20,452 nucleotides of DNA from a virus: the IMG/VR virus record IMGVR_UViG_3300021122_000007, positions 1 to 20,452 of that record, one strand, 5' to 3'. Made by a program: the position numbers and the translations under genes. Below the pieces are notes generated by a model. It ran no database searches. It saw only the letters and a program-made list of their open reading frames with translations, and was not told where the DNA came from. Positions within the stretch are counted from its first letter, which is position 1. Each line of letters begins with the position of its first letter. Of the stretch, positions 1-15,319 are shown piece by piece.

Positions 1-736
1 CTGCACATAACAGATAGGTTTTTAGAGGGCTTGGGTACTCCCATATCCACATTGCCTTATCGAGTCCCCTTCTTTCGATAGGCTCTAAGACCATGTTTTC
101 TTCATACCAACTTAGTATGTCTGGGATGATGACAGTATTACCCGATGAACTAAAGTCACAATCACACTCTTGCGCAGCCATTCTAACTCCAAGGTCTTGA
201 TCTTGTCTATCTCTCCAAGGTTGACTTCTTTCTGGGTGTACTGTCCAAGGAAGTGATACTGGTACAAAGCTGTTTTCTTTTTTCTGCGCTTTTATATATG
301 TTTTGTGGAACCAATTACCTACGCCGTTTGGAGTCGATAATGCTATACATTTACCACCGGTTGCCAAGGTTTGCTGAGCAGAACCAAAAAGATCCTCTGC
401 ATTATCTATGAAAGCGCAATTATGACTAACTACATCATTTGTATAATATTCGTTTTTATTCTTTACGTTTACTAAATCATAAACTTCGAATTCTTCTTCT
501 ATAATATCAATAGAAATAATAGAAATATTCCCAAATAGTATATCGCCTACTCTCAATAAACACGCTTCTAGAAACTCACCATTTGGAAATTTAAGACAAT
601 GCCCCTCTGTACACTTTATAAAAGAATTATTTGATAATTTTATATGAAAAATGATATTAGTAATCTTTGATAAAATTCCATCAAAATCACTAAACCCGGT
701 TGGAGTTAAAATTTCATATTTAGTATTTTTTATCAT
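1..736 (-). CDS. terL: Terminase large subunit, C-terminal fragment (split-intein C-part plus C-extein), partial
   Basis: This is the second half of a fractured terminase gene and it runs off the left edge. Residues 1-106 form the C-terminal part of an intein. They include the block-B-like KCTEGHCLKF, then VYDLVNV, and end in VVSHN. Asn106 is the expected cyclising residue and Cys107 is the +1 nucleophile of the C-extein. The extein starts CAFIDN, which lines up with the IDECAFIPN region of T4 gp17. It continues with the ATPase coupling motif (LSTPNG, around residues 134-139) and the start of the nuclease domain (QECDCDF...SSGNTVI). The catalytic nuclease residues lie mostly outside the window. 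The ATG overlaps the TGA of the endonuclease gene (ATGA), so translation is probably coupled. After trans-splicing, the product is the packaging motor ATPase/nuclease at the prohead portal. The intein part is visibly more AT-rich than the extein. Confidence 0.93.
   Translation of the reverse strand, partial: MIKNTKYEILTPTGFSDFDGILSKITNIIFHIKLSNNSFIKCTEGHCLKFPNGEFLEACLLRVGDILFGNISIISIDIIEEEFEVYDLVNVKNKNEYYTNDVVSHNCAFIDNAEDLFGSAQQTLATGGKCIALSTPNGVGNWFHKTYIKAQKKENSFVPVSLPWTVHPERSQPWRDRQDQDLGVRMAAQECDCDFSSSGNTVIIPDILSWYEENMVLEPIERRGLDKAMWIWEYPSPLKTYLLCA
419..736 (-). other. Intein C-terminal fragment (IntC, 106 aa)
   Basis: The fragment runs from the start Met to the terminal His-Asn (HN|C). The early YEILTPTGFSDFDGI stretch resembles, from memory, the C-part of the atypically split AceL-TerL intein, which sits in terminase and has a very short N-part and an IntC of about 104 residues. 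The splice boundary is set by the HN/Cys junction and by resumption of the gp17-like extein at position 418. Confidence 0.92.
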
Positions 737-1440
737 TTTAAAAATTGTCTCATCGATTTTAATAACTGGGGTTGTTCTTCATAATTAATCATATTCGCAT
801 TTTTCTTAAACCAACTATCTGAAATTATTACCATTTTATAAGAATTATCTTTACACCATGATAATGCGCTTTTAAATTTAATTATATTTTTAGGATCCGA
901 TTTTAATTTTGATGGTTTTATTTCATATAAAATTTTTTTGTCAAAATCAACGAAATCTACTATATAAGATGATACTTTATTTTGATATTCATATTGTATT
1001 CTTACTTTTTCGTAGTCTAGATGTTGATTTAATAGAAAAAATACAGCTTCCCAATTACTTCTGAATTTTTTTATGTCATCTTTAATTTTAATATAGCTTT
1101 TCCAATTTGTCCAACTATTAGTTATGCATGGCGTAAATTTACCTTCTTTTATAAGTCTCTTTAATCTTATTGAATTCTGTCTTCGTGCTTCTATTACTCT
1201 AGGACTACTCTTAATCTTTTCTTTATGTTCCTGTGTCGATACAGTTTTTTTATTTGATTCTACTCTTTTTCTTTTTGTTTCTTCTGAATCTTTATGGTGA
1301 TTATGTGAAGTCCAACATGGTTGAGTACAGTATTTTTTATTTTCTTTTTTTGTTAAATATCTCTTTCCACATCCGGAACATTCTTTTTCTATAGGTTCTT
1401 TCCAATTCCACGAGTGTTTTTTAATATTCTCTATAAACAT
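733..1440 (-). CDS. Homing endonuclease, zinc finger plus PD-(D/E)XK (Vsr-like) nuclease, lying between the two intein halves
   Basis: This 235-aa protein sits exactly between the two terminase/intein fragments. The N-terminus has a four-Cys cluster (C21, C24, C38, C42), probably a zinc finger. Residues about 50-75 are basic with a SEETKRKR...SNKK pattern like NUMOD3 DNA-binding motifs. The C-terminal domain has the order RSNWE (E131), YIVDF (D162), YEIK (E173, K175). This fits the E...D...ExK core of the PD-(D/E)XK nucleases related to Vsr that are found as phage homing endonucleases and with fractured split-intein genes. The expected job is to cut intein-less terminase alleles so that the intein and endonuclease cassette spreads. 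An ATATTTATA motif lies 10 bases before the ATG, so it may have its own promoter. Its stop overlaps the start of the downstream terminase part. It is very AT-rich, unlike the exteins. The biochemical activity is inferred. Confidence 0.85.
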   Translation of the reverse strand: MFIENIKKHSWNWKEPIEKECSGCGKRYLTKKENKKYCTQPCWTSHNHHKDSEETKRKRVESNKKTVSTQEHKEKIKSSPRVIEARRQNSIRLKRLIKEGKFTPCITNSWTNWKSYIKIKDDIKKFRSNWEAVFFLLNQHLDYEKVRIQYEYQNKVSSYIVDFVDFDKKILYEIKPSKLKSDPKNIIKFKSALSWCKDNSYKMVIISDSWFKKNANMINYEEQPQLLKSMRQFLK

Positions 1441-1450
1441 TTGCTTTTAC

Positions 1451-1458
1451 TATAAATA
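1451..1458 (-). promoter_or_regulatory. Candidate late promoter (ATATTTATA motif) before the endonuclease gene
   Basis: The sense sequence TGATATTTATAG overlaps the TGA that ends the terminase N-part and ends 10 bases before the endonuclease ATG. It is the same 9-mer seen before six other genes. Confidence 0.5.
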
Positions 1459-2058
1459 TCAATAATGTCCAGATAATTTATTTTTTAATTCATTTATTGT
1501 TGTCTTTTCTATTTCGCCAGTATTTTTATTCTTAATTAATATTTCAGTATCTCCAGTTACACATTCATCCATCACAAGAAGAGATACTGCTTCAGAACGA
1601 GCTGAGTCGCTTGCTCCTGACACTGCCTTTATCTGAGAACCGTTTGTGAGTCGTAAACTTAGCCTGTTGTCTTCAGTAGCTCCTATCTTCAACCAAGCTG
1701 GAAGGTTATCGTATGCAAATCGTACCTTTGTGACCATATTCTTGGCCGTCTCTTGCTTTGTTGCTATGACCAGTACGTTCTTATCTTTGTGGAATACCAT
1801 GAGCCAGAGCGCATAAGCAGACACCAACGTTGATATCCCCAGCTGTCTTGACTTGTTTATTATTACATTTTGGTCTCCTGAAAAGACCTTTAGCATGGAT
1901 TCTTGGAATGGGTATAGATCAAAGAGCATCCTGCCTCTTTGAGGGTGTTGGATCATGTAATACTTCTTCATGAAATATACCGGGTCTGTGGCGCATTTCA
2001 CAAATTCTTCTCGTATCTTATCTTTGATAGTGGATTGCCTCGTAATCGGTTCGGGCAT
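1459..2058 (-). CDS. terL: Terminase large subunit, N-terminal fragment (N-extein plus split-intein N-part)
   Basis: Residues 1-165 are the N-terminal half of a gp17-type ATPase. They contain a Walker A-like KSRQLGIS (69-76), which matches T4 SRQLGKT but with Ile at the usual Lys position, a variant seen in related terminases. Walker B is SLLVMDE (159-165). Immediately after the catalytic Asp-Glu the sequence becomes CVTGDTEILI, a classic intein block A with catalytic Cys166. It ends after only 34 intein residues at a TGA stop. The frame resumes in the gene at 736, beyond the endonuclease. Read without the intein, MDE joins CAFIDN as in uninterrupted gp17 proteins. The gene is therefore not a broken pseudogene but one half of a trans-spliced protein. 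Start ATG 2058 follows an ATATTTATA motif by 12 bases. Confidence 0.95.
   Translation of the reverse strand: MPEPITRQSTIKDKIREEFVKCATDPVYFMKKYYMIQHPQRGRMLFDLYPFQESMLKVFSGDQNVIINKSRQLGISTLVSAYALWLMVFHKDKNVLVIATKQETAKNMVTKVRFAYDNLPAWLKIGATEDNRLSLRLTNGSQIKAVSGASDSARSEAVSLLVMDECVTGDTEILIKNKNTGEIEKTTINELKNKLSGHY
1462..1563 (-). other. Intein N-terminal fragment (IntN, 34 aa)
   Basis: Begins at Cys166 of the reading frame (CVTGDT, block A) and ends at the TGA at 1459. Most natural split inteins have an N-part of about 100 residues, so this is an atypical split after block A. Confidence 0.93.
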
Positions 2059-2070
2059 AAAACTTTTGTT

Positions 2071-2078
2071 TATAAATA
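2071..2078 (-). promoter_or_regulatory. Candidate late promoter before terL
   Basis: Sense ATATATTTATAAAC, ending 12 bases before the terminase ATG. A T4-like TATAAATA also occurs about 20 bases further upstream in the sense direction, inside the 104-base spacer 2059-2162, which holds no convincing gene. Confidence 0.5.
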
Positions 2079-2162
2079 TATCGGATTTGACTGAGTATAT
2101 TTATAAGTCTCCTGCATCAATATAATCTTCAATGTTGATTTTAAAAAGTCTATCTTTGCAGT

Positions 2163-2621
2163 TTAAGTAGTTTCTTCAGGAGTCTCTGGTTTTTCCTTTG
2201 GTTTTTCTTCTTTTTTTGTTGGAAGCTCTTCTGACCTTGGTCCTTCTTCGCTCTCTGGACCTTCAGACTTTGATTTTGCTCCATATCTCTGTATCCTATT
2301 GATCGCCATAGTAGCCCTTTGGATGTCTCCTATGTTCATCAGATAGTAGCGCTTGCCTTGCACACCTGCTTCGTACGCTTTTCCCATGAACGTCATAAAG
2401 AAGTACTGATTGTTTTTTAGCAGTATCTTGAAGGTGGTCGGCTTTCCAGATATTATGAATATTCCATCCAAGTATTCTTCAAAGTTATCTCCCATCAAAG
2501 TTATTAGGTTCTTGTTGAGCCTTTTATACTTTCTCAGGATGTAGCCCATAGGATCTGCATCAAACTCTGGATTTGTGTGATCTTCATGTACTTCTTTGAG
2601 TATGTCTATCAGTTTTATCAT
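2163..2621 (-). CDS. Conserved phage protein with capsid-targeting-like N-terminus
   Basis: A 152-aa protein of unknown function. It opens with MIKLIDILKE, shared with several neighbours, and I read this as a capsid-targeting propeptide with a possible prohead-protease site after LKE (T4 gp21 cuts after L/I-x-E). The middle (about residues 30-115) is a compact mixed domain (GDNFEEYLDG, KILLKNNQYFFMTF, GKRYYLMNIGDIQRAT). The tail from about 118 is a low-complexity Glu/Lys/Pro segment. The start overlaps the stop of the upstream gene (TAATG), so the two are probably translated together. It lies just upstream of terL in a late gene group. No enzymatic motif is visible. Confidence 0.8.
   Translation of the reverse strand: MIKLIDILKEVHEDHTNPEFDADPMGYILRKYKRLNKNLITLMGDNFEEYLDGIFIISGKPTTFKILLKNNQYFFMTFMGKAYEAGVQGKRYYLMNIGDIQRATMAINRIQRYGAKSKSEGPESEEGPRSEELPTKKEEKPKEKPETPEETT
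2592..2621 (-). repeat. Repeated 5' gene module encoding MIKLIDILKE, copy 1
   Basis: Sense start ATGATAAAACTGATAGACAT. Near-identical 30-base modules open the genes starting at 3248, 4125 and 8278. Confidence 0.8.
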
Positions 2622-2881: not shown

Positions 2882-3248
2882 ACCCTCTATCTTTTAGTTT
2901 TGATATGATATTGTCTACCTTATTTGATATCTTTTTATAGTGAGATTTCATTATAGATTCATCAAAAGATTCATCTACTCTAGATATTGGTTCTATACTA
3001 TACCCAAAATAATTTTCTTTATCCTCTGGATTATAATATCGAGTTCTAGTTGTAAAAATATAATCATCAACTCTAGGATCATAGTCTTCTACTCCACGTT
3101 CCTCCCATTCATTTGATTCAACCCAACTTTCTGCTTCGTCTTTTGAATCAAAAATTCTGCTTGTAGGGAATTCTTCATCTCCATAATCTGTAAATACTAC
3201 TCTGTATTTTATTATACTCTCTTTGGGTATGTCTATGAGTTTTATCAT
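2871..3248 (-). CDS. Small phage protein with MIKLIDI N-terminus
   Basis: A 125-aa protein of unknown function. The N-terminus MIKLIDIPKE is the same module as in neighbouring genes, but Pro replaces the Leu needed for an L-x-E protease site, so cleavage may be lost. The remainder is acidic and Tyr-rich. Residues about 15-50 (KYRVVFTDYGDEEF, IFDSKDEAESWVES) look like a small alpha/beta module, and the C-terminal 30 residues are basic and helical. The ATG is supported by identity of the first 7 codons with other members of the group. Confidence 0.7.
   Translation of the reverse strand: MIKLIDIPKESIIKYRVVFTDYGDEEFPTSRIFDSKDEAESWVESNEWEERGVEDYDPRVDDYIFTTRTRYYNPEDKENYFGYSIEPISRVDESFDESIMKSHYKKISNKVDNIISKLKDRGYVK
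3219..3248 (-). repeat. Repeated 5' gene module, copy 2 (MIKLIDIPKE)
   Basis: Sense start ATGATAAAACTCATAGACAT. It differs from copy 1 at a few bases, including the one giving Pro instead of Leu. Confidence 0.75.
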
Positions 3249-3885: not shown

Positions 3886-4125
3886 TCACTTAGGTTCGAA
3901 CCAATCACTACACCATTTTCTAGGATCTTTTATGTCCATCACAGCGTTTCCGTTCCATGCCTCGTAGTATTGGTTTCCACAGATGTGTTGGTCATTCTCG
4001 TAGCTGTAGTACTTGCATACTGCGCAGCTAAAGCCATCAGGACTGTACATGAAAGGTTCATGGTTTGTTGGGAGAGTTATGTCCCCTTTGATCTCTTCTT
4101 TAAGTAAGTCTGTAAGCTTTATCAT
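3886..4125 (-). CDS. Small four-cysteine protein (HiPIP-like) with capsid-targeting-like N-terminus
   Basis: A 79-aa protein. The first ten residues, MIKLTDLLKE, are a variant of the shared N-terminal module and contain an L-x-E site. The body has four Cys, C34, C37, C49 and C72, in the pattern FSCAVCKYY ... HICGNQ ... WCSDWFEP. This resembles the layout of high-potential iron-sulphur proteins and of small HiPIP-like proteins I recall from T4-like marine phages. A metal or Fe-S cluster is therefore likely, but which one cannot be told. If the leader is cleaved, a mature protein of about 69 residues would be packaged or assembled in the head. Confidence 0.7.
   Translation of the reverse strand: MIKLTDLLKEEIKGDITLPTNHEPFMYSPDGFSCAVCKYYSYENDQHICGNQYYEAWNGNAVMDIKDPRKWCSDWFEPK
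4096..4125 (-). repeat. Repeated 5' gene module, copy 3 (MIKLTDLLKE)
   Basis: The most diverged copy: sense start ATGATAAAGCTTACAGACTT. The amino acid pattern is kept. Confidence 0.7.
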
Positions 4126-4129
4126 ATTT

Positions 4130-4894
4130 TTAGTTTTTTCTTCCCCACTGTATGCCTTCTTTTCCGCTTTGCAACCACATCTTTACGTAGTTCTTTTGTC
4201 TTTCTGTGGCTTTGTATCCTTGCTTTTTTATAGAGTTCATGATCCCATCTAGGTAATCATCTTGCTTGCTCCTCTTTGCTATGTTGTTCACTCTGTTCCA
4301 CTCTTGCTCTCCAAACGGCTGTAAATTCTTCCAATCTTCTTTTAGAAAGTCTGATAGCTTTATCGTCTTGCTCTCTTTAATGCTAGCAAGAGCTTTTAAT
4401 TCTTTGTTTGCGTCGTCTATTTTATAGAGGTATTTTTTTATCTTTGTAGAAAAGAAACTTACTATCTTATTGAGGTACAATTTGACTTTATCTGCAGTTG
4501 ATGCTTCAGATAGTTTTCCTATGGTAAATCTAGTGGATACTTTTCTTACAGTAGACTCTTCTTCTTCTAGCTTCTTACAAACTGCTTTTGTAGCTTCATT
4601 CAGCTTGGTTAGCGCATATTCATATGCTTTTTTATATTTGTGAACTTGAGACTCATATGCCGGTTGCTTAATAGTTATTATGTAATACTCTGAAACCGCT
4701 GTTTTTTCTTCAAGCTGCTTCATTGTTTCAAACATCGGAGCTAGATCTTTTGCAAATTCACCATATTTTTTTTCCATAACTTTCATTCTGTCAGACAGCT
4801 CATCTATCTCATTTTGTAGATGGTAGAATTTTTCTAGTTGTGCAACTATTGCTGGATCCTGGATCTCAATTTCTTTAAGGTAGTTTTTTTTCAT
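4130..4894 (-). CDS. Coiled-coil phage protein, apparently a fusion with an internal targeting-like motif
   Basis: A 254-aa protein. Residues 1-175 are largely helical and predicted to form coiled coils (QNEIDELSDRMKVMEKKY, KKLEEEESTVRK). They resemble conserved proteins of T4-like marine phages that begin MKYLKE.... The start MKKNYLKE itself offers an L-x-E site. At residues 177-186 lies TIKLSDFLKE, which looks like the N-terminal module of neighbouring genes without its Met. A separate basic domain of about 65 residues follows (NRVNNIAKRSKQDDYLDG ... QKNYVKMWLQSGK). The layout suggests that two genes fused and the second kept its leader. The ATG overlaps the TGA of the upstream membrane protein gene. 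The role is unknown. Confidence 0.75.
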   Translation of the reverse strand: MKKNYLKEIEIQDPAIVAQLEKFYHLQNEIDELSDRMKVMEKKYGEFAKDLAPMFETMKQLEEKTAVSEYYIITIKQPAYESQVHKYKKAYEYALTKLNEATKAVCKKLEEEESTVRKVSTRFTIGKLSEASTADKVKLYLNKIVSFFSTKIKKYLYKIDDANKELKALASIKESKTIKLSDFLKEDWKNLQPFGEQEWNRVNNIAKRSKQDDYLDGIMNSIKKQGYKATERQKNYVKMWLQSGKEGIQWGRKN

Positions 4895-7807: not shown

Positions 7808-8278
7808 TTATGATTTTACAAGCTTAGTCTTATCTACAAAATCTGCTCTTCTTACTGATGGTATCTTTCTGACTCTGTCTTCTATTGTTTTTATAGTACT
7901 TGTGTCAAAAGTTTCAAATGGGGCTGGGTCTATCTTGATGCTGATGTCCACAACATACTTTTTTAACCTTGCTGCCGATGGCTGACGGTTATTTGTAACA
8001 CGTACGATGGTAACTCCAGTTAGAGCCCTGATGTCAGAGAGGATGTCTGCAAGTGATCTCTTTGTAGTATCTGCCATGAGTCTGCCTTCTATCTGATAGA
8101 TCTTAGGACTGAATGTTTCTTTGACAGTAGAATTTATATCTTTAGCCGCTTTCACAGCTTTTTTATATGCTTTACTGCCTTTACGAGCAGGTTTCTCTCC
8201 CCTAGCTCTTTTTGCTCGGATGTTCGCCCAGAGTCCAGGCTTTTCTATTTCCTTCAGTATGTCTATGAGCTTTATCAT
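7808..8278 (-). CDS. Basic phage protein with capsid-targeting-like N-terminus
   Basis: A 156-aa protein. I start it at ATG 8278, which overlaps the stop of the upstream gene (ATGA) and gives the shared leader MIKLIDILKE; a longer in-frame ORF would add 18 implausible residues. Right after the leader is a very basic segment, KPGLWANIRAKRARGEKPAR, followed by KGSKAYKKAVKAAKDIN, a signature I recall in many phage proteins and probably nucleic-acid binding. The C-terminal half (about 70-150) looks like a ferredoxin-like alpha/beta fold (GVTIVRVTNN, KKYVVDISIKI, IKTIEDRVRKIPSV). A packaged DNA-binding or virion protein is a reasonable guess. Confidence 0.75.
   Translation of the reverse strand: MIKLIDILKEIEKPGLWANIRAKRARGEKPARKGSKAYKKAVKAAKDINSTVKETFSPKIYQIEGRLMADTTKRSLADILSDIRALTGVTIVRVTNNRQPSAARLKKYVVDISIKIDPAPFETFDTSTIKTIEDRVRKIPSVRRADFVDKTKLVKS
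8249..8278 (-). repeat. Repeated 5' gene module, copy 4 (MIKLIDILKE)
   Basis: Sense start ATGATAAAGCTCATAGACAT. The encoded decapeptide is identical to copy 1 although the DNA differs at synonymous sites, which suggests selection on the peptide. Confidence 0.8.
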
Positions 8279-10922: not shown

Positions 10923-11693
10923 TTAATAATATTTTAATTTCACCCCTTTTTGTAAGTCTTTCCACACTTTGGATACACTACATTTATTTTGTCTAGAATA
11001 TTCTGCTAAAGAACAGAAAACTAACCCTGATTCAATTTCTATTATTTTTTTACTTTTTTTAGGATGATTTTTAAGTGCATTACTTAATTTAAGTTTTACA
11101 TCTTTTGAAGTAGTCTTTCCATACATCGGATTTTTTTCTCCTTTTCTATTATCACTTAATGTTTTTCTACTTTTTTTATCCATGTAATGTTTTCCTTTAT
11201 TATTAATCGATATTTTAATTTTATGTTCTTCAGATAAAGATTTTGTTTTTATTCCAAAATTCCAAGGAATATTACCTTTTAGAGATTCTCTTATTTTATT
11301 TTTAATATCGTCTGATATTTTTTTATTTTTATGTATTTTAGAGTTGCTTTTACAAAATTCAATTTTTAATCTTTCATAAACCCGACTAGATACTTTATAT
11401 TCAACTATAGATTTTTTTCTTCTTTTATTACTCATTGCCCATGATATGTATTTTATTTTTTTATTTCTGGGGTATATTTCACAGAGTAAAAGATGACATA
11501 AAAAATGTTCTCCTGCTGTTAGCGGTATTATATTTTCATCATTCCAATTTGAACTTTTACCTTTTCCTCCTAAGCATTTTGGAATAATATGATGTCCTTC
11601 ATAATAACCTCCATTCTTTTTATGTAATTTTCTTTGTTCTAGTTCAGATTTTGCTCTTTGACAGATTTGATTATATATCTTATAGTAATTCAT
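10923..11693 (-). CDS. Free-standing HNH homing endonuclease with NUMOD DNA-binding motifs
   Basis: A 256-aa protein using ATG 11693 (MNYYKIYNQICQRAK), which matches the usual start of this family; an in-frame ATG at 11735 would start inside a predicted RNA stem. The HNH core is YYEGHHIIPKCLGG (30-43), NDENIIPLTAGEHFLCH (51-67) with His34, His35, His63 and His67. NUMOD3-like segments follow (SEEHKIKISINNKGKH; SDNRKGEKNPMYGK), and a NUMOD1-like helix-turn-helix closes the protein (VFCSLAEYSRQNKCSVSKVW). Expected action is site-specific cutting of phage DNA lacking the gene. It is very AT-rich and lies between two complete genes, so it looks like an independent insertion rather than intron-borne. 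Confidence 0.9.
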   Translation of the reverse strand: MNYYKIYNQICQRAKSELEQRKLHKKNGGYYEGHHIIPKCLGGKGKSSNWNDENIIPLTAGEHFLCHLLLCEIYPRNKKIKYISWAMSNKRRKKSIVEYKVSSRVYERLKIEFCKSNSKIHKNKKISDDIKNKIRESLKGNIPWNFGIKTKSLSEEHKIKISINNKGKHYMDKKSRKTLSDNRKGEKNPMYGKTTSKDVKLKLSNALKNHPKKSKKIIEIESGLVFCSLAEYSRQNKCSVSKVWKDLQKGVKLKYY

Positions 11694-11816
11694 AAAAAAA
11701 TAGGCCGAAGATAAAAGAGTTCTAGTCCAACTCAAAAATCAAACGGCCAATAAATTCATATTTATAATAGCTAGGACTAGTAGTATTATCTACTATAAAT
11801 ATTAGTCTTTTGAAAT
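11694..11816 (-). promoter_or_regulatory. Structured leader of the HNH endonuclease gene
   Basis: In the sense direction this spacer holds an outer stem GGCCG/CGGCC (11744-11748 with 11703-11707) enclosing a hairpin GAGTT/AACTC (11729-11733 with 11717-11721). The 7-base loop GGACTAG (11722-11728) is perfectly complementary to upstream CTAGTCC (11774-11780). Seven Ts follow and abut the ATG. The spacer also has an ATATTTATA motif (11794-11801). It could be a terminator, a translation-blocking structure, or both. Confidence 0.45.
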
Positions 11817-12193: not shown

Positions 12194-15100
12194 CTACTCG
12201 TGGTATACCTTTGAAAAACCGTCTTTGACTTTGTCTATGGAGATCTGATGATCTACTATGTCTTTTATGGATTCTATGTGAGATATTATGACCACAAATT
12301 TGAACTGAGTCTTTAGGTATTCCATCAATATAGAGACGTTTCTAAGATTTCCTTGGTCTAAAGTTCCCCAGCCCTCATCTATAACCAGGAAGTTAGGTCT
12401 TGGCAAAGAAGTCAAATTTATCAAAGAAGACCTTATTGCTAGAGAAGATATGAATTTTTCCATGCCACTGGACAGCTCTATTGGCCACTTTTTGGTCTCA
12501 TCATACACTATATAAGCATTTATGTTCTTACCGTCAGACTGTATTGAGATACAGAAATCTACTATCTGAGCCAGTATGTTGTTTATCTCATCCTGTATTT
12601 TTGGTATCACCGAGCTTATCAAATCATATGGAAGTCCGTCTCTTCCTGTTGCAGAAAGATAATACTCGTAGTATTTGAACTTATCTTCTAAAGCCTTCAG
12701 GTTGTTTATGTTTAGGTTTGTTTTTGCTATCTCTTCTTCACACACGTTGATGTTTGTATTACAGCTCATAACGTATCCAGACACCTTAGAAAGATCAGAC
12801 TTTAAAGAAGATATCTCAGCCTGTAAAACATTTAGCCTTGATCTTATGTCTTTGTTCGATTCTATGGCGGCTTCTTTTTCATCATGCAGTTTGATCTTCG
12901 ACTCTACATCCTTTATTGATGTCTCATTTTTATGAAGGTCCAGATCTATCTTATTCAGATCAGACTCTGTCTTCATCTTTTCATTCTTCTTCTTTGTTAA
13001 ATTTACTTGGGCAGATTCATACGATGCAACTTTTGTATTTAAAATTTGAACTCTTCCTTTTAATTCCTCCAGCTCTAATACTACTTTTTTTGAATTTTCT
13101 TTGTCAGATTCTATAGAACCTTTTGTGGCTATTGCATCTTTCACAAATGCATTTTCCATGCAATACTTGCAGCTTTCATCATATTTTAAATCCTCAAGCT
13201 TTTTCATCTTTTCTAGCTTCTGGGATATATCATACTTTAGATTTTCTGAAAGTATAGACAGCTGAGCTATCTTATCAGTAGAATTTTTGAGATCAAGCTT
13301 TGCATCATTATAGCTCAATTCATCTGATTTTTGAGCTTCATCTTCTGCTTTTTTTAGCTCTAATTCATTGTCTTTTAGCTTTTTTTCAAGGTCTTTCTTT
13401 TTATCATTTAAAGCAGATCTTACGTCAGTCATTGCTTTCTTTTGTGATTCTAACCTCTCTATGTCAAGTATATCTGAGTCTATCACCGCCAACTTTGAGC
13501 TCATTTTGACGTAATCTTCAGTTGCAATGTCTATTTGCTCTTCCAATATTTTTTTCTTTTCTTCGAGCTCTCTGTATTCTACAGAATACGATTTTAGACT
13601 TGAGTCTAGATCCTTCAACTTTGAAAAGTAGTCGTATTTTTTGTATTCTTTTATGAGCACTGAATACTCTTTTATATTCTCACTTGCAATGCTGTTTAGG
13701 TCTTCAAAAACTTTTATGTCCAAAAACTGAGACAGCAGATCCTTTCTTTCAGACTGCCCCATATCAATAAAACCAATGTTGTTATTCTGCATTGACATGC
13801 TAGTAAGAACAAAATCGTCATATGTTCCTATCACCGATCTTATTGATGCATTTGTGTCTGCTCTATCTTTACCGTTAAGGAGGATGATATTTCCTTGATC
13901 ATCTGCGTAATAAAAGCTTACATCTTGCTTTACACTGTCTGAGTTAGATCTGTATGACGCTCTTCTCTCTATGGTATAGATGTTTCCATCAAGTTCAAAT
14001 TCAAATTTGCAATAGAAGTCATTGCTGCGGTTGTTCATAACCATTGCTGCTTTGTTAGTCTTGGATGACTTGTCAAAAAGACAATACACAAGTGCTTCTA
14101 TTGCAGAGCTTTTTCCAGATGCATTTCTGGCAAACACTCCATAAGATCCATTCATATCTGTAAAGTCTATTACATTGTCTTTTCCATAGCTGAACATGTT
14201 AGAGAACTCAAATCTCTTTGGATTCCAGTGTATGTTTCTTATAGAATCTGTCTTTGGCAAGCTTTTATTTATCTCTGTGTTGAGTTCACACACCTTTTCT
14301 ATATCTTCTTGAGATAATCCAAATTTAGACTTTAAATGATCTGTCAGCAGAAAGTTTTGATATGACACATCTCTTACATTAGAGTTGTTTACATTAACAA
14401 GAGATGCAGATGTTTGGTCTTTTACAACCTGTTGAGTAAGCTCTATGACATTTTTTTGATCTTTTATTTCAGCCACTATGCTTTTTATTTCTGCTGGAGA
14501 AGTGTTTTTTGATCTTATCTTCAAGTATATGTTTACAGGAAGATCTTTTGGGAGGTCTTTGTATATACCATTTTCTACGTCTATAGTATAAAACGCTGTA
14601 TCATTTTGTATCCTTACAAATTCTGAAGTTTTTGACTCTACATCCCACACAAGTATTCCATGGTCTAAAGACTCTCCATGGTCTTGTTGTATCAGGCTTC
14701 CTGGATAAGCTGCTGTCTTCTTGTCATTTACATACTGGCACGCAACATGTATGTCTCCAAGCAGTGCAAGATCAAACCCACCAAAGTCAGATGGGCTTAC
14801 GCTATTGCCAGTAAGCTTGAACCCAAGATCAGTGTAAGAATCATTAACTGGTCCGTGGTACAGACATATCTTACATTCAGACTTTATATCAGACGCTTTT
14901 ATGTAGTTTTTTACGTCATCAAATACTGACCAATGTACAAAATCTATGTTTGCTATCTTAAATACCCCGCTGTCTTTTAGATAAGTTATATTCTTGTCTG
15001 CCATTGCATTTATGATAGGACTTAAGCTATCTAGCCTATCATTGTTGTTTAGATTTGCGTCATGATTGCCAGGTATAACTACAACTGGCAACAGCGCACT

Positions 15101-15319
15101 CATCATCCTTAAGAACTCTTGCACTTCTTGCACAAGCTCCGGCGTTATGTCTGTTTTTGAATGCACAACATCTCCAGTTATGCAAATTATGCTTTCATCT
15201 GTCTTTGTATTTTTTATGTAGTCTGAGACTTTTTGAAACACCCTTTTGTATTCAGCGTGTCTTTTAAAATTTCGCAGATGTATGTCTGATATGTGGTAGA
15301 TCTTTTTTATTTTTAGCAT
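12194..15319 (-). CDS. Fused Mre11/Rad50-like (T4 gp47+gp46, SbcDC) recombination nuclease
   Basis: One 1041-aa protein carries both subunits. Residues 1 to about 340 are an Mre11/SbcD calcineurin-like phosphoesterase: SDIHL (11-15), ITGDVV (47-52), PGNHD (83-87), LYHGP (153-157), LGDIHV (187-192). From about 365 an SbcC/Rad50 ATPase begins: Walker A region FARNASGKSS (396-405), a long coiled coil (about 550-880) with zinc hook CKYC (717-720) at its tip, ABC signature ELSSGMEKF (948-956) and Walker B FLVIDEGWGTLD (977-988). T4 gp47 and gp46 are separate proteins that process DNA ends for recombination-dependent replication and host DNA breakdown. The P-loop has Ala where the first Gly is usual. 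The gene overlaps the primase gene by 7 bases. Confidence 0.95.
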   Translation of the reverse strand: MLKIKKIYHISDIHLRNFKRHAEYKRVFQKVSDYIKNTKTDESIICITGDVVHSKTDITPELVQEVQEFLRMMSALLPVVVIPGNHDANLNNNDRLDSLSPIINAMADKNITYLKDSGVFKIANIDFVHWSVFDDVKNYIKASDIKSECKICLYHGPVNDSYTDLGFKLTGNSVSPSDFGGFDLALLGDIHVACQYVNDKKTAAYPGSLIQQDHGESLDHGILVWDVESKTSEFVRIQNDTAFYTIDVENGIYKDLPKDLPVNIYLKIRSKNTSPAEIKSIVAEIKDQKNVIELTQQVVKDQTSASLVNVNNSNVRDVSYQNFLLTDHLKSKFGLSQEDIEKVCELNTEINKSLPKTDSIRNIHWNPKRFEFSNMFSYGKDNVIDFTDMNGSYGVFARNASGKSSAIEALVYCLFDKSSKTNKAAMVMNNRSNDFYCKFEFELDGNIYTIERRASYRSNSDSVKQDVSFYYADDQGNIILLNGKDRADTNASIRSVIGTYDDFVLTSMSMQNNNIGFIDMGQSERKDLLSQFLDIKVFEDLNSIASENIKEYSVLIKEYKKYDYFSKLKDLDSSLKSYSVEYRELEEKKKILEEQIDIATEDYVKMSSKLAVIDSDILDIERLESQKKAMTDVRSALNDKKKDLEKKLKDNELELKKAEDEAQKSDELSYNDAKLDLKNSTDKIAQLSILSENLKYDISQKLEKMKKLEDLKYDESCKYCMENAFVKDAIATKGSIESDKENSKKVVLELEELKGRVQILNTKVASYESAQVNLTKKKNEKMKTESDLNKIDLDLHKNETSIKDVESKIKLHDEKEAAIESNKDIRSRLNVLQAEISSLKSDLSKVSGYVMSCNTNINVCEEEIAKTNLNINNLKALEDKFKYYEYYLSATGRDGLPYDLISSVIPKIQDEINNILAQIVDFCISIQSDGKNINAYIVYDETKKWPIELSSGMEKFISSLAIRSSLINLTSLPRPNFLVIDEGWGTLDQGNLRNVSILMEYLKTQFKFVVIISHIESIKDIVDHQISIDKVKDGFSKVYHE

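Follow-up and report, generated by a model that had tools for sequence, protein, structure and literature searches.

Fractured genes whose halves carry split inteins, with a free-standing homing endonuclease gene between them, were reportedly described by Dassa et al. in 2009, and the endonucleases concerned are said to belong to the VSR-like EDxHD family (I-Bth0305I). The inteins of AceL-TerL and GOS-TerL and the engineered consensus Cat (structure 6dsl) have the phage large terminase subunit TerL as host protein and are split after block A into a short N-terminal part (IntN, 25-37 amino acids in the literature) and a long C-terminal part (IntC, about 104-106 amino acids). Such atypically split TerL inteins have so far been known mainly from metagenomic fragments and as protein-engineering tools. 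In mycobacteriophages, TerL is a hot spot for inteins with insertion sites at Walker A and Walker B, and each of these inteins was tested as one in-frame element, with endonuclease domains inside some of them; the paper on them (PMC5050341) uses neither the term 'split intein' nor 'multiple inteins'. Here we analysed 20,452 nucleotides of viral DNA (positions 1 to 20,452 of IMG/VR record IMGVR_UViG_3300021122_000007, hereafter the window), at whose left end TerL is spread over two open reading frames (ORFs) on the minus strand with a third ORF in between. A preliminary description of this DNA had proposed that terL is a fractured gene carrying an atypically split intein, and this held up on the computed gene anatomy, catalytic residues, IntC fold and match to Cat, empty-site alleles, switch of the residue after the intein (+1), purifying selection and presence of the same endonuclease family in distant phages. 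We consider it highly probable that the two halves are trans-spliced into an intact TerL, with the endonuclease encoded between them as the driver of homing.

The two intein fragments lie on separate ORFs, each attached to one extein, and the exteins are contiguous in homologues, as expected of a split intein. The terL frame had been described as stopping 34 codons past the Walker B MDE, with those codons opening with CVTGDT, and the coordinates 1563-1462 agree. The remainder of the intein was indeed found in a second ORF beyond a third gene, ending in HN and followed by CAFIDN at the point where T4 gp17 continues. The junction at residues 256/257 was exact: in the alignment the exteins abut between E256 and C257 of gp17, directly after the Walker B MDE, with zero residues missing or gained. 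The range 416-2058 given earlier is correct for IntC to TerL-N, and the C-half of TerL goes on below 416. The IntN stop codon occupies 1459-1461, the endonuclease ORF begins 18 bases on, and an ATGA at 733-736 makes the endonuclease stop overlap the IntC start. The overlapping contig L002 supplied the complete C-half (106 + 369 amino acids). Where they overlap the window, L002 and L083 are identical to it and L003 differs by 1 base in 6,673; L083 and L003 repeat the structure, and an assembly error was ruled out as the source of the break. L091 is a version about 70% identical with the same stops and starts. The nearest isolate to the window phage is Flavobacterium phage immuto, with 62% identity in the C-half, and we read the locus as the fractured terL of a T4-like phage.

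We then assessed the identity of the intein. Together the halves hold Cys1, T43-x-x-H46, H105-N106 and Cys+1, which is the catalytic set of class 1 inteins. A comparison with solved structures matched IntC to CatC of 6dsl (E=2e-15). In a set of 12 phage and contig IntC, the invariant residues were H46 (T-x-x-H motif), D87, N100, H105 and N106; in a wider set of 19, D87, N100, S104, H105 and N106 were invariant and H46 nearly so. Identity across these sequences goes down to 32%. The preliminary description had named failure of the two parts to form a HINT fold as a possible refutation. We modelled IntC alone with AlphaFold2 on an alignment of natural homologues, and the mean predicted local distance difference test score (pLDDT) was 92.2. 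A Foldseek search with this model returned 6dsl (Cat, 'with atypical split site') at the top, with a template modelling (TM) score of 0.88 and 1.8 Å, and all 40 matches in the PDB at E≤0.001 were intein or intein-like structures. IntC is thus predicted by the model to adopt the HINT fold. IntN could be aligned with its counterparts in 16 other split TerL inteins, and Cys1 was common to them.

The split after block A (34 + 106 amino acids), with a short IntN and a long IntC as in AceL, GOS and Cat, was confirmed by the ORF coordinates. The resemblance to AceL-TerL claimed earlier stood for sequence and structure, with the E value and TM score given above; it did not stand for the insertion site. 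In 6dsl the flanks are EFE before IntN and CE after IntC, and L179 and L181, the closest natural relatives of Cat that were found, read EFE^C ... HN^CEFLGS (^, insertion point). The insertion site of the AceL/GOS/Cat lineage thus lies in the nuclease domain (EFE^CEFLG), whereas that of the window intein is Walker B (MDE^CAFID). By sequence, the window intein is a member of the AceL/GOS/Cat family at another insertion site, a family relation and not an allele.

We also scanned IMG/VR with the C-half. Intein-free terL alleles were found in L004-L007, with C-halves 91-95% identical to that of the window and unbroken at the same codon. All 78 intein-free alleles examined carry Ala at +1 (DE^AAFI type). 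By contrast, Cys is found at +1 in the window and in its split relatives at this site. MDE^CAFID occurs in the window, L091 and L085, all of which are nested among intein-free alleles in the TerL tree, and on supported branches the contrasts between occupied and empty sites gave Cys with the intein in all 3 independent pairs. Splicing uses Cys+1 as its second nucleophile, whereas TerL in the window's clade does not need Cys at this position; its presence only together with the intein is therefore good evidence for working splicing, although by itself we regard the switch as supportive rather than conclusive. T4 gp17 likewise has Cys at this position, and Cys+1 may have arrived with the element from another lineage.

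We further measured selection on the element by comparing the window with L091, whose exteins are 92% identical in amino acids. The ratio of nonsynonymous to synonymous substitution rates (dN/dS) was 0.33 for IntN, 0.19 for the endonuclease, 0.25 for IntC and 0.03 for both exteins, and dS was 1.0-1.5 in the element versus 1.4-1.9 in the exteins. By these values, purifying selection acts on the IntN, endonuclease and IntC ORFs, and this speaks against decay of the element. The L091 element shares 53-65% amino acid identity with that of the window, compared with 92% for the exteins. A separate acquisition of the L091 element was considered, but because element dS is comparable to or somewhat below that of the exteins, the two elements may just as well share an ancestor and have changed faster at the protein level.

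Table 1. Features of the divided terL locus at the left end of the window
Feature	Position	Strand	Evidence
TerL N-extein, 165 amino acids, ATPase domain through Walker B MDE (...SLLVMDE)	1564..2058	-	Pfam Terminase_6N 28.6 bits (cut-off 22 bits); T4 gp17 alignment ends at residue 256
IntN, 34 amino acids, CVTGDTEILIKNKNTGEIEKTTINELKNKLSGHY, Cys1 first (block A CVTGDT), in frame after TerL-N	1462..1563	-	Reading frame; IntN alignment
Free-standing putative endonuclease ORF, 235 amino acids, CxxC..CxxxC ribbon and PD-(D/E)XK core	733..1440	-	phrog_15427; TnsA-like Pfam in relatives; conserved residues; Foldseek
IntC, 106 amino acids (MIKNTKYE...VVSHN), T43-E-G-H46 block B, D87 block F, terminal H105-N106	419..736	-	6dsl CatC match; invariant residues; structure model
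+1 nucleophile Cys codon	416..418	-	Ala in 78/78 intein-free alleles examined
TerL C-extein (CAFIDN...), first 139 of 369 amino acids, rest of ATPase domain and nuclease domain; runs off window end	2..418	-	T4 gp17 alignment from residue 257

The ORF between the halves was assigned to phrog_15427 (endonuclease, E=3e-27), and the family alignment showed an invariant set of E131, D162 and E173-x-K175 (E..D..E-x-K). A TnsA-like N-terminal Pfam domain was matched by 8 of 9 family members (best 1.3e-9), the window copy not being among them at that threshold. A PDB search with the endonuclease sequence alone gave only noise, so the protein was modelled from the alignment; Foldseek with this model ranked TnsA first and the homing endonuclease I-Bth0305I below it (second or third), with modest to weak scores. 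We assign the ORF by its conserved residues and family matches to the TnsA-like PD-(D/E)XK endonucleases. The locus resembles the fractured genes of the 2009 work in having an endonuclease ORF between the halves, and its E..D..E-x-K core may set it apart from the EDxHD family.

The same endonuclease family was found at the Walker B split point in many split relatives, among them Escherichia phage HY03, Yersinia phage phiR1-RT, Krischvirus TB34, Shewanella phage Thanatos-2, L085, L086, L091, L113-L116 and L152. The four isolates are T4-like phages of another host lineage, and their IntC are 36-41% identical to that of the window. Their GenBank annotation records merely two terminase pieces, plus the endonuclease between them where it is separate. 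An element of this type is thus already present in GenBank isolates, and the genomic context with an endonuclease, to which the preliminary description had pointed, is not new. A literature search for trans-spliced terminase found no paper. TB34 and Thanatos-2 have the endonuclease joined in frame to IntN, which indicates that the split point is where the endonuclease inserted. These data fit insertion of the endonuclease gene after block A, which would thereby have split the intein, and suggest an explanation for the atypical split position. Split versions at the Walker B site without an endonuclease occur in L118 and L144, and in-frame relatives without one occur at another TerL site in L119, L175 and L182. 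In L094 (1304-3055) and L095 (467-2212) the endonuclease lies in frame behind IntN, an arrangement midway from an interrupted intein to a split one. The TnsA-like family also adjoins intein pieces, with weak matches, in a UvsW-like helicase of Proteus phage PM2 (L107), PhoH of a Campylobacter phage (L099/L108) and a Lak phage (L098), where the intein pieces have the canonical split with block B in the N part.

From the families concerned, we infer how the halves associate and splice, and how the endonuclease cuts DNA and promotes homing, as follows. Three proteins would be produced from adjacent genes, namely TerL-N-IntN, the TnsA-like PD-(D/E)XK endonuclease and IntC-TerL-C. IntN and IntC would associate into one HINT domain, acyl shifts by Cys1 and Cys+1 and cyclisation of Asn106 would follow, and a seamless TerL of 534 amino acids (...MDE-CAFID...) would be released. 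The endonuclease at the split point is most likely what makes the whole cassette home into terL alleles that lack the intein, and the patchy distribution alongside intein-free alleles is the homing-related pattern seen. The element would then be a mobile parasite rendered tolerable by splicing.

The need for trans-splicing to give an intact motor, as proposed earlier, is by far the best explanation, given the conserved residues, the HINT fold, the empty sites and the +1 switch. It is very unlikely that the halves instead join non-covalently into a working motor with the intein remnants as mere dimerisation tails, because none of the splicing residues has been lost despite deep divergence and +1 is Cys and not the clade's Ala, neither of which docking needs. 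Joining at the RNA level by an intron or ribosome hopping has a precedent, since introns interrupt terL in other phages such as ICP1 (PMC10448857). In this locus, however, intein motifs close the first half and open the second, the two ORFs being separate and each having its own stop and start, and an Rfam search of window 300-2200 for an intron or other RNA element returned nothing at E≤1; we give this explanation almost no credence. The preliminary description had further held that splicing controls ATPase activity, which holds only trivially, an unspliced half being no motor, and we found no evidence of regulation. A regulatory switch, in which the onset of packaging is controlled by when trans-splicing takes place or by the intervening endonuclease gene, would be an addition to trans-splicing and compatible with it. 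Insertion at the catalytic Walker B motif suits such a role, and for mycobacteriophages it has been speculated that inteins in the terminase have a modulating function (PMC5050341). Nevertheless, close relatives without the element have an unbroken terL, homing alone explains the preference of inteins for conserved motifs, and condition-dependence is not known, so we judge the switch unlikely.

Several observations weigh against trans-splicing with homing. IntN alone scores weakly in family libraries (NCBIfam intein_Nterm below cut-off), which we attribute to its being too short, and a PDB search with IntN alone gave zero matches. There were only 3 independent contrasts for the +1 association, which is not significant alone (p 0.25). 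DNA identity was not clearly raised near the junction, with no sign of recent co-conversion. Finally, the phage genome is only a fragment, which leaves room for a second terL elsewhere. This last point would suit a dead or dying element, in which terL is inactivated by its division and the phage either is defective or depends on another copy. A second intact terL had been set as a possible refutation at the outset, and we found a single terL match within the window's record. The three ORFs are open and under purifying selection, three further contigs are near-identical and many relatives have the same layout, which makes a dead element very improbable. Trans-splicing with homing remains the reading we prefer. 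The element sets the atypically split TerL inteins in a genomic context that includes close intein-free alleles, and the pairs of occupied and intein-free alleles make homing and the requirement for Cys at +1 directly testable.

We next surveyed relatives of the element. A profile scan gave at least 371 confirmed relatives, and sites were classified by motif in the best 80 of these together with known phages. The results showed at least four TerL insertion sites (Walker A GK^T, pre-Walker-B, Walker B and the nuclease site) and several TerL genes with two or three split inteins. In L086 (2333-5870) and L114 (1476-5882), TerL is divided into three ORFs by split inteins at the Walker B and nuclease sites. 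On the contig of L158 (1036-4604) and L199 (1450-1869), TerL is divided into four ORFs by three split inteins at the Walker A, pre-Walker B and nuclease sites, which read ...SRQAGK^IntN; IntC^TTT...RGKS^IntN; IntC^CSLLYIDE...QEFE^IntN; and IntC^CEFQGSS... In L184 (366-5658), TerL likewise occupies four ORFs with three split inteins, and by motif inspection the gaps hold GIY-YIG-like, TnsA-like and EDxHD-like endonucleases.

We lean towards the view that T4-like phages have in TerL a target with multiple sites, where several unrelated endonuclease families enter one mini-intein family at the same point, each turning a cis intein into a split one, and motors would be assembled from up to four polypeptides via three split inteins needing correct pairing. 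If true, naturally orthogonal split inteins coexist within one protein. The natural family comprises many IntN/IntC pairs, some within one protein, which are candidates for short-IntN and orthogonal ligation tools. The multi-fractured TerLs are the more surprising part, and a limited literature search found no description of them. As separate observations, L087 (1316-5173) has a single TerL in which an in-frame intein bearing a large insert is found together with a split intein at the nuclease site, and in Campylobacter phage NCTC12673 (GU296433.1) TerL-N-IntN (46033-46587, minus strand) and IntC-TerL-C (72897-73193, plus strand) are separated by about 26 kb and encoded on opposite strands, and the record annotates neither of them.

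Other genes of the window were also noted, all on the minus strand. A second homing endonuclease gene (10923-11735, phrog_655, E=3e-38) lies among ordinary phage genes. A shared M-I-K-L-(I/T)-D-(I/L)-(L/P)-K-E stretch starts four proteins (2595-2621, 3222-3248, 4099-4125 and 8252-8278) and is internal in a fifth (4340-4366), with a chance expectation of 0.01. It recalls the capsid-targeting leaders cut by the T4-type prohead protease, which would make its carriers internal head proteins. An ORF of 1041 amino acids at 12194-15319 combines a metallophosphoesterase part with an SbcC-like part, so that the recombination nuclease subunits corresponding to T4 gp47 and gp46 appear fused.
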